From a virus, in the IMG/VR virus record IMGVR_UViG_3300042304_000666, positions 1-24,763 of that record: a stretch of DNA of 24,763 bases; one strand, 5' to 3'. Position numbers and translations under genes: made by a program. Each line of letters starts with the position of its first letter. Positions within the stretch are counted from its first letter, which is position 1. The notes beneath the pieces were generated by a model that worked only from the letters and a program-made list of their open reading frames with translations, was not told where the DNA came from and did not search any database. Of this stretch, positions 3,641 to 23,476 are shown piece by piece.

Positions 3641-3652
3641 TCATTTTCTTAG

Positions 3653-3723
3653 CTTCTCACCATGGATTCGAACCACGATTCTTGCCTCCAAAGGGCAATG
3701 TCCTGCCGTTGGACGAGTGAGAA
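3653..3723 (-). tRNA. tRNA-Gln (UUG)
   Basis: 71 bases fold as a full cloverleaf. The acceptor stem is TTCTCAC/GTGAGAA with discriminator G. The anticodon stem is TTGCC/GGCAA with loop CTTTGGA, so the anticodon is TTG and reads CAA. The T-arm has the standard TTCGAAT loop. CCA is not encoded. Confidence 0.93.
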
Positions 3724-3724
3724 A

Positions 3725-3798
3725 TGGAGCGGATGATCAGAATCGAACTGACCCCTTCTGCTTGGAAGGCAGAGGCACTACCAATATGCAACATCCGC
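3725..3798 (-). tRNA. tRNA-Gly (UCC), CCA encoded
   Basis: Acceptor stem GCGGATG/CATCCGC, discriminator T, and an encoded CCA. The anticodon stem TCTGC/GCAGA encloses CTTCCAA, giving anticodon TCC, which reads GGA. The D and T arms pair normally. It is the only one of the five with an encoded CCA. Confidence 0.93.
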
Positions 3799-3806
3799 AT
3801 GCTATG

Positions 3807-3879
3807 TGTCCCTAGTTGGATTCGAACCAACGCTGTATAGATTTTAAGTCTACCGCCTCTACCGCTGGGCTATAAGGAC
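3807..3879 (-). tRNA. tRNA with Leu anticodon (UAA) on a short-variable-arm body
   Basis: Cloverleaf of 73 bases: acceptor GTCCTTA/TAGGGAC, D stem GCCC with GGC, anticodon stem GTAGA/TCTAT around CTTAAAA, and T stem GTTGG/CCAAC. The anticodon is TAA, reading UUA (Leu). The variable region is only about five bases (ACAGC), whereas leucine tRNAs normally have a long variable arm. The discriminator is A, as expected for Leu. CCA is not encoded. The identity is therefore less certain than for its neighbours. Confidence 0.85.
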
Positions 3880-3884
3880 TTTTG

Positions 3885-3957
3885 TGCCGTCGGCAGGAAT
3901 CGAACCTGCGGCCAAGACCTTAGAAGAGTCCTGCTCTATCCCCTGAGCTACGAAGGC
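3885..3957 (-). tRNA. tRNA-Arg (UCU)
   Basis: Acceptor GCCTTCG/CGACGGC with one T-C mismatch at the fourth pair. The anticodon stem GGACT/GGTCT encloses CTTCTAA, giving anticodon TCT, which reads AGA. T stem GCAGG/CCTGC. The 5' end is six bases from the stop codon of the preceding gene. CCA is not encoded. Confidence 0.92.
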
Positions 3958-3963
3958 ATTTAG

Positions 3964-4275
3964 TTAATCGTTTGGAATATCTTCTTCATGCATATTAATT
4001 TCTATTAATCCTAAATCTTTTGCCATTTCATGTCCTTCTTCAGACATTTCTATTGTTGCTTCAAGATTATCATTATATGTAACATTAATTAAGCCAGCCT
4101 CATATAACTGGACCAGCGATCTATCAACATGCTCTTGATGCGCTTCCCATAGTTCTGGCGCAATTTCTTTTGCTTTTTCTGTAATCTGAAAAATAAACTC
4201 ACCATGTTCATCCATTCCAGTTAACTCAACTGCACCCAATTGTAAGTACATTGATAATTTCTCATCATCATCCAT
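3964..4275 (-). CDS. Small acidic protein, winged-helix-like
   Basis: 103 residues, strongly acidic at both ends (MDDDEK; HEEDIPND). The middle, with FQITEKAKEIAPELWEAH, SLVQLYEAGLINVTY and EMSEEGHEMAKDLGLIE, has the helix-helix-strand spacing of small winged-helix proteins, but no family is recognised. GAGGAG lies just before the ATG and only a few bases after the 3' end of tRNA-Met, so the message is probably released by tRNA processing. It is embedded in the tRNA cluster. A regulatory or DNA-mimic role is possible but not shown. Confidence 0.75.
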   Translation of the reverse strand: MDDDEKLSMYLQLGAVELTGMDEHGEFIFQITEKAKEIAPELWEAHQEHVDRSLVQLYEAGLINVTYNDNLEATIEMSEEGHEMAKDLGLIEINMHEEDIPND

Positions 4276-4287
4276 GTGTTCTCCTCG

Positions 4288-4361
4288 TGCAACAAGTAGG
4301 ACTTGAACCTACGATTACCGAATTATGAGTTCGGGGCTTTAACCAACTAAGCTATTGTTGC
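4288..4361 (-). tRNA. tRNA-Met (CAU), elongator-like
   Basis: Acceptor GCAACAA/TTGTTGC pairs fully from base 1, unlike typical bacterial initiator tRNA. The anticodon stem CCGAA/TTCGG encloses CTCATAA, giving anticodon CAT. The T stem GTAGG/CCTAC is normal. It could also be tRNA-Ile2 if C34 is lysidine-modified. CCA is not encoded. Confidence 0.9.
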
Positions 4362-20926: not shown

Positions 20927-21053
20927 CGTCATCACCTTTAGAATTCTTTATTACAACTGGTCCATTCAATGAGTTCCAGTAAGCAACTTCTTCTTCTCTC
21001 TTACGCTTCTTTGCTGCTCCCGTTTCAAGGGTATACTGAGCATTGAATGTCAT
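20916..21053 (-). CDS. 45-residue basic/acidic microprotein
   Basis: The ATG at 21051-21053 overlaps the preceding stop (TAATG) and follows a GGCGGAG ribosome site. A basic stretch (AAKKRKREEEVAYW) is followed by a short strand and a DDDGE end. No family recognised. Support is the good ribosome site and the tight overlaps on both sides. Confidence 0.6.
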   Translation of the reverse strand: MTFNAQYTLETGAAKKRKREEEVAYWNSLNGPVVIKNSKGDDDGE

Positions 21054-21535
21054 TACTCCGCCTTCCATACTGGTATAAACCCGCTGTCTGTCTTAGTATA
21101 CAATATAATGTTGTGTTTGAGAAGCCCTAAAAGCTCTGTTCTTGAAGGAACATTTCCAGAGTGTCCTGAATCTAATATAAACTCATGTAAATCCAAGATA
21201 TCTTTTTCATTAAACATATACTTAGACCAGTTCTTGTTATCTGGATCCCCTATGGGATATATTTTTTGAGGAGCTTTTATCTTGCCGTCTAGAATATAAT
21301 CGTGTAGAGTAACCGTATGCTTATTAAGTAATGCAGAAACATCCCTCATTGCGTAAGCTTTACCCATATATTTTTCAACTTGAGAGTAAGAATACATCAC
21401 TCTTTTTTTATCTGGGTAACACCAAGCAACTATCTCATCTTTAGATCTAGATGATTTAATTACTTTATGTATCTTATCGTTTAAGAAGAAATACCGTAAT
21501 TTTTTGAGTTTATTGTTTCTTTTTTGTCTAGCCAT
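21053..21535 (-). CDS. Putative DNA-binding protein with MerR/excisionase-like segment
   Basis: 160 residues. The first 40 are highly basic (MARQKRNNKLKKLRYFF). Residues ~65-120 hold VSALLNKHTVTLHDYILDGK and, after a loop, KYMFNEKDILDLHEFIL; this helix-turn-helix, wing and helix order is that of MerR/excisionase-like domains. It could bind DNA near an origin or act as a regulator. No exact family is assigned. It overlaps the upstream zinc gene by 55 bases, so the start could be slightly further in. Confidence 0.6.
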   Translation of the reverse strand: MARQKRNNKLKKLRYFFLNDKIHKVIKSSRSKDEIVAWCYPDKKRVMYSYSQVEKYMGKAYAMRDVSALLNKHTVTLHDYILDGKIKAPQKIYPIGDPDNKNWSKYMFNEKDILDLHEFILDSGHSGNVPSRTELLGLLKHNIILYTKTDSGFIPVWKAE

Positions 21536-21666
21536 TTCCCGAAAGCACTCGTCTCTTTATTGCACATCCAGCGTTTGCCGCACATGATACAGAATAGCTC
21601 CATATGTAGTTTTTGAGAAAAAACTCTATCTACAAAAACTCTGCCACTGCATTTACCACACCACAT
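21481..21666 (-). CDS. Small zinc-ribbon protein
   Basis: 61 residues with CGKC (C3, C6) and CIMC (C26, C29), the four ligands of a zinc ribbon, and a fifth Cys at 35. The second half is basic and polar. The ATG overlaps the phosphoesterase stop by one base (TAATG). Function unknown. Confidence 0.75.
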   Translation of the reverse strand: MWCGKCSGRVFVDRVFSQKLHMELFCIMCGKRWMCNKETSAFGKWLDKKETINSKNYGISS

Positions 21667-22466
21667 TATAAAGTAAATACCTTGCCATCAACTACACAAG
21701 AATAATCAGGTGCAATATGAATCATTTGAATATGAGGATAGTCGTTTACAATATGAGCAACTGCAAATCCCTTTTGCCAATCATGGTGCTGGCTGTATTT
21801 CATTCCATCACTCTTTTCATCACACATGTGTCCAATTTCATAGCCACGAAGTGTTTCACCTTCACCACCGTTTCTAAGTTCATATGTTACCATATGTGAG
21901 GCAATTCTGTGTGAGTGTCCTCTAATTAAAGAAACTTGTAGGTCTTCCATATCTTTTCTTACTGCTCCTGTTGCAGATATAGAAAGTCCATGATGTACGT
22001 GAATATCTCCAAAACGGCGTTTAGGAAGTTCGTTATAATAAATGTATTCGTATCCTAATGAATCCAGACTCCACAAAGACTCTGGTGTAACCTCTTTAAT
22101 GTAATCAGGAAGCTTTGCATCTACATAATTAAATACTCGAATATCGTGGTTTCCTAAAGCTGAAAAAAGTTGTGCGTCTGGAAGCATCTCTCTAGTCTTA
22201 GCATAAAAATCTCTTGCTTCTTTTGCTTCGTGCCTCATCATGGGAACAATAAGATCTTTGCTATCGTTTTTATGATAGTTTAAAAACTCTGCTGATCGAC
22301 CTTCTGTATACTTGCTATAGCAAGCTTGATCGTCTGTATCCCCAAGGTAGTCCACAACGTCTGGCTTAAACCATTTCATTACTTTAAACCATAGGGCTAT
22401 CATCTTATCATCTTGATACGGGAACTGCTGATCGGATGAAAGCATCCATTTTAAATCGTTGCTCAT
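21666..22466 (-). CDS. Calcineurin-like metallophosphoesterase
   Basis: 266 residues with all family motifs: SSDQQ (D12-x-Q14 in place of DxH), YLGDTDD (40-46), GNHD (105-108), HHG (158-160) and GHSHR (183-187). Two metal ions would sit between these. Substrates range from nucleic acid ends (Mre11/SbcD-like) to cyclic nucleotides and proteins; the short length and lack of a capping domain do not decide. It is the first gene after the control region at 22487-22548, which suggests early expression. Confidence 0.88.
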   Translation of the reverse strand: MSNDLKWMLSSDQQFPYQDDKMIALWFKVMKWFKPDVVDYLGDTDDQACYSKYTEGRSAEFLNYHKNDSKDLIVPMMRHEAKEARDFYAKTREMLPDAQLFSALGNHDIRVFNYVDAKLPDYIKEVTPESLWSLDSLGYEYIYYNELPKRRFGDIHVHHGLSISATGAVRKDMEDLQVSLIRGHSHRIASHMVTYELRNGGEGETLRGYEIGHMCDEKSDGMKYSQHHDWQKGFAVAHIVNDYPHIQMIHIAPDYSCVVDGKVFTL

Positions 22467-22483
22467 TTTCTACCTTAATATGT

Positions 22484-22508
22484 AAAAAAGTCACGGGTAC
22501 GTGACTTT
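22484..22508 (-). terminator. Intrinsic terminator or attenuator on the minus strand
   Basis: Stem AAGTCACG/CGTGACTT (eight pairs, loop TACC) followed by a run of six T on the minus strand; the plus strand side has only three T, so the signal is directional. It ends the structural transcript coming from the right. It also lies only ~6 bases downstream of the predicted start of the promoter at 22521-22548, so it may act as an attenuator for the early operon. Confidence 0.85.
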
Positions 22509-22510
22509 GA

Positions 22511-22529
22511 TGTTACAGTAATTGTAACA
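22511..22529. promoter_or_regulatory. Dyad operator over the early -10
   Basis: TGTTAC and GTAACA flank a seven-base centre (16 of 18 non-central bases symmetric). The dyad covers the TACAAT -10 completely, the classic place for a repressor or activator to block RNA polymerase. No cognate regulator is identified; the small HTH proteins at 8735 or 21053 are candidates. Confidence 0.6.
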
Positions 22530-22548
22530 TATTGATTTAGATTGTCAA
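22521..22548 (-). promoter_or_regulatory. Early/replication operon promoter
   Basis: TTGACA (22543-22548) and an extended TGTTACAAT -10 (TACAAT at 22521-22526), 16-base spacer. It is the best-scoring -35 in the window. Predicted start near 22514, before the hairpin at 22487-22508. It faces the metallophosphoesterase and the replication genes. Confidence 0.75.
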
Positions 22549-22560
22549 TAGGTTATTTAT

Positions 22561-23013
22561 TTAACCTGCGATATTTCCCGATGCAGTCCAGTGGATCTTA
22601 GCCTCGGTAGGCAATGCTTTAGTTGTAGTCGTAGCAGCTTTACACCAAATACTAAACCCAGTAGTGCTGGGAGCAATTACATATGGAGTGTACGCCGCAT
22701 TTGTTGAAGTAGTTGCAAATGATATATTTAGATTAATTGTTGGAATCCCATCAAAGACTACCCCAAATGGGACTGGAAAAGATTTCATTGTAGGAGAAAG
22801 CGCTAGCTGCTGGATTCCGCCTATTGTAGTATTTAAACCTCTTGAAACTACTGCAGTGCCGCCATTGACAGTTTTATCAGCAACTACTTGAACTGAAGTT
22901 GTAGAGTCTCCTTTAGCTATAACATTAATATTTTCAATAATTTTACGCAGCATATCTGCAGTTACTGGATCACCGTCTCCAATTGATACAGATTGTAAAT
23001 TATTAATTGCCAT
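22561..23013 (-). CDS. Small structural protein, fibre- or tip-like
   Basis: 150 residues, Thr/Ala/Val-rich and beta. After a short helical start (DMLRKIIENINVIAKG) come repeated strands, and the end KIHWTASGNIAG resembles the last strand of lectin-like domains found on phage fibres. The sequence has no signal peptide or membrane segment. It is the last gene before the terminator and follows the coiled-coil trio and FN3-like protein, so a virion role is likely. AGGAG precedes the ATG. Confidence 0.65.
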   Translation of the reverse strand: MAINNLQSVSIGDGDPVTADMLRKIIENINVIAKGDSTTSVQVVADKTVNGGTAVVSRGLNTTIGGIQQLALSPTMKSFPVPFGVVFDGIPTINLNISFATTSTNAAYTPYVIAPSTTGFSIWCKAATTTTKALPTEAKIHWTASGNIAG

Positions 23014-23448: not shown

Positions 23449-23476
23449 ATTATATCATTTAGCCCTGATTAGTCAA
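23449..23476 (-). promoter_or_regulatory. Promoter inside the structural region
   Basis: TTGACT (23471-23476), 16-base spacer, extended TGATATAAT (-10 at 23449-23454). The same TTGACT -35 appears at the terminase promoter, and the AAATGATATAATATA context matches the lysin promoter. It overlaps the end of the upstream small gene and would start just before the AAGGAGG site. Confidence 0.7.

Follow-up and report, generated by a model that had tools for sequence, protein, structure and literature searches.

A promoter with a terminator-like hairpin in its predicted leader at the boundary of structural and replication genes in a large group of freshwater phages

Genes and signals at the boundary

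We analyzed a viral sequence record of 24,763 bases (IMGVR_UViG_3300042304_000666), referred to here at its full length as the window, and focused on a short block on its minus strand. The block separates the last virion gene from a replication operon whose first gene encodes a metallophosphoesterase (phrog_221; 21666–22466, minus strand, ATG at 22466). All longer genes on either side are read leftward, so that structural and replication genes are co-directional, and the genes downstream of the block include those for a helix-turn-helix (HTH) protein, a DnaB-like helicase, a primase, DNA polymerase III alpha and RecA. The early class given to the replication genes in the first-pass annotation is a prediction from this gene content. 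The last gene of the upstream, structural-side unit (22561–23013, minus strand) has its stop codon 12 bases ahead of the promoter described below.

The promoter comprises a -35 element, TTGACA (22543–22548, minus strand), and an extended -10 element, TGT-TACAAT (22521–22529, minus strand; TG at 22529–22528, TACAAT at 22526–22521). The two hexamers match at 11 of 12 positions, and the 16-nt spacer falls within the 16–18 nt typical of sigma-70-type promoters. The first-pass annotation had placed 16 bases between TTGACA and TGTTACAAT; this count is correct before TACAAT, but only 13 bases precede TGTTACAAT. The same annotation ranked this promoter as the best in the window. It is one of seven matches at 11/12; among these, no other pairs TTGACA with an extended -10. 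An extended -10 also occurs in one further match at this level, TTGACT-N16-TATAAT (23449–23476, minus strand), which lies ~1 kb upstream without a hairpin behind it. A promoter of this second kind, with the consensus TTGACT-N16-ATGnTATAAT and a strong ribosome-binding site, again without a hairpin, is found ~1 kb upstream in many relatives as well as in the window. In the window it is accompanied by an AGGAGG-type site and would drive small genes close to where the structural cassette ends. The palindromic -10 was also considered as a divergent promoter on the plus strand, which was rejected on inspection, as the sixth base T of the plus-strand -10 is not kept in relatives.

From the promoter spacing, transcription is predicted to start at 22514 (minus strand), 7 nt past the -10. 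The predicted RNA has a leader of ~48 nt, in which a terminator-like hairpin, AAAGTCACG-TACC-CGTGACTTT (22487–22508, minus strand), begins at about +7 and is followed behind its core by a U-tract, TTTTTT (22484–22489, minus strand; predicted +26 to +31). Next comes a probable ribosome-binding site, AAGG (22473–22476, minus strand), and an AAGG ahead of the ATG is conserved in relatives. A perfect dyad, ATGTTACA-N5-TGTAACAT (22510–22530, given without strand), has its left arm in the extended -10 and its right arm around the predicted start. The first-pass annotation had described the -10 as fully covered by the dyad; the arm holds TACA, but the last AT of the hexamer lies in the dyad loop.

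In the window, the hairpin core has a folding energy of -7.9 kcal/mol, and the 22-nt core together with the U-tract gives z = -6.4 relative to shuffled sequences. Judged by its letters, the element has both hallmarks of an intrinsic terminator, a stable G+C-containing hairpin and a U-tract directly behind it, and is a good candidate for one. A simple terminator scan of the window did not list it, since pairing is possible between three of the six T and the AAA at the stem foot. Folding of the leader gave the hairpin and a weak second helix, with no riboswitch-like or antiterminator alternative; no leader peptide or ligand domain was seen in the focal leader, and an Rfam search of the window returned tRNAs only.

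Conservation and distribution of the block

Three queries and one hairpin pattern were used to retrieve relatives of the metallophosphoesterase gene from IMG/VR, which yielded 329 loci with 168 distinct upstream sequences. As most of the data come from one protein-anchored search, the sample is one of loci that carry this gene. For conservation measures we used a thinned set of 113 rows with less than 93% identity in the metallophosphoesterase gene, and trees were built from this one gene with FastTree. In 162 of the 168 distinct sequences, the metallophosphoesterase gene has the block directly upstream. The block occurs in a large group of freshwater phages. One match to the hairpin pattern (L122) has neither the promoter nor the downstream gene and appears unrelated. 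A scan of GTDB genomes for prophage or host copies found no relative of the metallophosphoesterase gene.

The promoter, the hairpin and the U-tract are conserved as one unit, with the spacing between them fixed. Over the thinned set, the mean information content is 1.98 bits across the six positions of the -35 element, 1.82 bits in the -10 hexamer, 1.6 bits per position in the stem and 1.57 bits per position in the U-tract, against a background of 0.25 bits in the 20 bases ahead of the -35 and 0.60 bits just past the U-tract. The promoter spacer is 16 nt in 150 of 156 parsed relatives, and by eye also in the rows that the parser missed owing to a TACACT hexamer, L263 excepted. In every one of the 157 relatives tested, the upstream gene's stop codon either overlaps the -35 or is no more than 18 bases away from it, most commonly 2–4 bases before it; promoter and leader are therefore the only non-coding room at this boundary. 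The packing of promoter, dyad and a hairpin with six T into the structural/replication boundary, as first annotated, is thus confirmed by the coordinates and by conservation in relatives.

The hairpin keeps a folding energy of about -10 kcal/mol throughout the relatives (typically -10.1 kcal/mol). Pairs 1–7 are Watson-Crick or G-U in 144–145 of 145 relatives (with G-U counted at pair 5), and two-sided changes that retain pairing are seen at all seven core pairs, as in the stem variants GCCACG, GGTCACG, GGCCACA, GTCGCA and GGCCATGA in place of GTCACG. The four-base loop varies freely. That the letters of stem and loop vary while pairing holds fits a structural signal better than a bound sequence. 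The U-tract consists of six or seven T in 105 of the 113 thinned relatives, and in 98 of 108 an RNA ending with the U-tract would be 31–33 nt long. On the metallophosphoesterase gene tree, the hairpin and the U-tract each show three state changes. Loss of the U-tract (seven unique sequences, three changes) has left a strong hairpin in three lineages, so the hairpin can have another use. Taken together, the conservation of hairpin and U-tract has the signature expected of an intrinsic terminator, with a few lineages keeping the hairpin without the U-tract. We also observed a lineage (L251, L279, L284, L305, L308 and L309) with a stronger self-complementary stem, GGCCATGAATATTCATGGCC, at the same position in the leader and without a U-tract.

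The gene order around the block is common to annotated cultured relatives, and the synteny of the metallophosphoesterase gene extends to Rhodococcus and Streptomyces phages. The Loccivirinae Streptomyces phages Comrade, TunaTartare, Patelgo and Belfort have the same layout built from unrelated hairpin sequences: promoter, strong hairpin, pyrimidine run, ribosome-binding site and metallophosphoesterase gene, in this order. Comrade (its first 50 kb) and three records of ~110 kb were scanned with a promoter threshold of at least 10/12 matches. A promoter with a terminator-like hairpin no more than 55 nt downstream was found exactly once in each, always at the focal locus, compared with 0.1–0.2 expected. 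In three Streptomyces phage loci (L204, L206 and L344) the pyrimidine run can pair with the ribosome-binding site (e.g., CUCCC with GGGAG), which may point to an influence on translation.

The promoter is present without such a hairpin in the Boydwoodruffvirinae (WhereRU, Mildred21 and Jay2Jay) and in a metagenomic clade (L322–L337), and no strong terminator was found in the 2–2.5 kb upstream in these hairpin-less relatives. A terminator in phage BillNye, considered as one that might have moved, was rejected, lying inside coding sequence. Neither promoter nor hairpin is found directly upstream of the gene in the Rhodococcus phages NiceHouse, Grayson and Trina or in L263. The metallophosphoesterase gene of the latter (at about 3000) has a TTG start behind an AGGAGG-like site. 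We also compared the presence of the upstream promoter between hairpin-bearing (49/128) and hairpin-less (0/6) sequences, and did not retain the association, as the numbers are too small and the sequences too closely related.

A probable terminator nested in the leader

The best explanation, which we regard as moderately probable, is that the block acts as the replication operon's promoter and that an intrinsic terminator is embedded in the leader of this operon. The second promoter ~1 kb upstream has no hairpin of its own, so its transcripts, and those of the structural genes, would reach the focal hairpin, where the polymerases would release their RNA. The level of the replication operon would then be set by its own promoter. 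Polymerases starting at that promoter would meet the signal at about +31 and get past it frequently enough for the operon to be expressed, while some of their transcripts would end as an RNA of ~31 nt. The earlier proposal that the hairpin is placed to end the structural transcript is supported by its position, by selection on both hairpin and U-tract, and by the near-constant distance from the start. The joint absence of promoter and hairpin in L263 and the Rhodococcus phages also counts in favor of a nested terminator. Insulation by itself gives no reason for the position of the hairpin, which is always behind the promoter and never before it, and the hairpin-less L322–L337 clade and Boydwoodruffvirinae, which also lack a strong terminator upstream, indicate that insulation is not essential.

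Partial termination so near a start is physically possible, given that 39% of transcripts from the T7 A1 promoter end in vitro at a lambda tR2 terminator positioned at +38 (PMC6978380). This value weakens the strong form of a suggestion in the first-pass annotation, that the early complex escapes because it resists termination. Partial attenuation of the operon's own promoter would be the likelier outcome, and a strong promoter could afford the loss. The T7 A1-tR2 template resembles the focal block in having a terminator less than 40 nt from the start (PMC6978380), but it is an artificial construct, whereas the focal arrangement is natural and conserved. Leader terminators and attenuators likewise have a hairpin and U-tract lying behind the promoter and ahead of the operon's first gene. 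The block differs from leader attenuators in that the leader is only ~48 nt long, the putative terminator ends at about +31, and the element is also placed against transcripts from upstream.

The block could thus represent a natural, conserved terminator within ~31 nt of its own promoter, present in hundreds of metagenomic phage sequences and with a layout that is repeated with different sequences in culturable Streptomyces phages. This makes it testable how a terminator is read by a polymerase shortly after promoter escape, and whether a terminated polymerase restarts at a neighboring promoter in vivo.

Among the alternatives, the one that survives best, while still fairly unlikely in our view, is that the hairpin is a 5' stabilizer that shields the replication mRNA from 5'-end-dependent RNases, with termination incidental or absent. 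Such a role would suit a hairpin that always lies between the start and the ribosome-binding site, its survival in the three lineages that lost the U-tract, and the very strong hairpins of the Streptomyces phages, which are followed by four U or fewer. However, a stabilizer does not need a U-tract, and the U-tract is conserved to the same degree as the stem. The 6–9 unpaired nucleotides at the predicted 5' end would weaken the protection.

It is also unlikely that the terminator sorts polymerases by origin, stopping those that arrive from the virion genes, letting most of those from its own promoter pass, and allowing the stopped ones to be recycled. A polymerase released at a terminator can stay on the DNA, slide back and restart at its original promoter (PMC6978380), which is the basis of this proposal. 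At the focal locus, a stopped polymerase would stay on the DNA beside a strong promoter, slide back to it and restart transcription of the replication operon. If this were true, late transcription would feed the replication operon without reading through into it.

The dyad and the remaining readings

No other exact match to the pattern of the dyad exists in the window. Across relatives, its arms are perfect in 31 of 89 distinct types, compared with essentially none in shuffled sequences; the dyad has been lost in many lineages. It shows ~19 state changes on the tree against three for the hairpin. Along the tree, T/C at the left arm and A/G at the right arm change together, with 5.6 same-direction pairs compared with 0.1 in the opposite direction (median p ~0.03). 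The loop of perfect dyads is 5, 6, 7 or 8 nt long, so that half-site spacing differs by up to three bases. We consider the dyad to be real but most likely of secondary importance in the promoter and start region, and not the core of the device. A reading of the dyad as acting only in RNA gained no support either way, as G-U and A-C deviations are roughly equal on inspection.

One use of the dyad would be as the loading site of a regulated attenuator, in which most transcripts halt at about +31 until a phage or host factor, acting as lambda Q or AlpA does, is loaded at the promoter and allows polymerase to continue. Q has been described as requiring a -10-like element in the initial transcribed region (PMC6606751), and AlpA, whose binding sites lie inside promoters, allows bypass of a terminator immediately downstream (PMC7969949). 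The focal block resembles the lambda Q, phage 21 Q and AlpA sites in having a promoter-internal element and a putative terminator downstream (PMC6606751; PMC7969949), together with a candidate -10-like sequence in the initial transcribed region, but the focal dyad overlaps the -10 and the start and not the -35/-10 spacer. A TAnnnT element, which could act as a -10-like sigma pause element, occurs 5–7 bases past the -10 in most sequences, in keeping with such a mechanism, as is the near-constant distance from start to terminator. However, the right arm of the dyad (TAnnnT) is -10-like by construction, and the left arm is fixed by the -10; where the dyad has been lost, TAnnnT is found in 10 of 28 sequences compared with 5.7 expected, a weak excess, and elsewhere it is implied by the dyad. 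The lack of an evident antiterminator fold in the leader and the sister lineages that manage without a hairpin also speak against regulated attenuation. In the lambda late operon, the terminator is much farther from the start than in the focal block. A search for Q (PF06530) and Antiterm (PF03589) family proteins, which covers these two families, found none in 12 records while control genomes were positive. We consider regulated attenuation, too, to be unlikely.

An antiterminator RNA of the put type was also considered. The put RNA of phage HK022 has ~70 nt and two stem-loops (PMC9378689). Both it and the focal hairpin are structured RNA just behind an early phage promoter, but the focal leader has one short hairpin of variable sequence and then a U-tract. 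With a single stem in a leader of ~48 nt, the size is wrong, and this candidate was rejected.

The first-pass annotation had read the dyad as an operator, and repressor binding is indeed its likeliest single use, albeit a distinctly unlikely one. A repressor, perhaps the HTH protein (21053–21535), would cover the -10 and the start and shut off the operon late. The perfect dyad centered on the start region, the co-change of its arms and the membership of the HTH gene in the same replication operon are what this proposal can draw on. The first-pass annotation had proposed a search for the dyad elsewhere in the genome: no second perfect copy was found in 19 long records, and hits with one or two mismatches are scattered and unshared, for which reason an operator regulon was rejected. 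The operator of a dimeric repressor should have fixed half-site spacing and, if it served the operon's own regulator, should follow the HTH gene; the spacing is variable, the dyad changes often on the tree, and the HTH gene is present in 46 of 47 relatives that lack the dyad. It is likewise present in all 11 cultured loci tested, none of which has the dyad. As the presence of the gene is unassociated with that of the dyad, autoregulation by the operon's HTH gene was rejected. The early promoters of phiC31 offer a comparison, with conserved inverted repeats and nearby stem-loop terminators, the repeats being many and bound by one repressor. The focal block is likewise an actinophage promoter overlapped by an inverted repeat with a putative stem-loop terminator nearby, but its dyad is single-copy and variable in spacing.

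Finally, it is highly improbable that promoter and terminator serve to yield a short RNA with a job of its own: its predicted length of 31–33 nt is very constant, but the free variation of stem and loop letters leaves little conserved sequence for a target, and the promoter is also placed to drive the operon.

Elsewhere in the window, positions 1–120 carry tandem 15-base repeats that encode a Glu-Glu-Pro-Pro-Ala repeat at the end of a minus-strand ORF running off the window, and five tRNA genes (Gln, Gly, Leu, Arg and Met) are found on the minus strand at 3652–4361.
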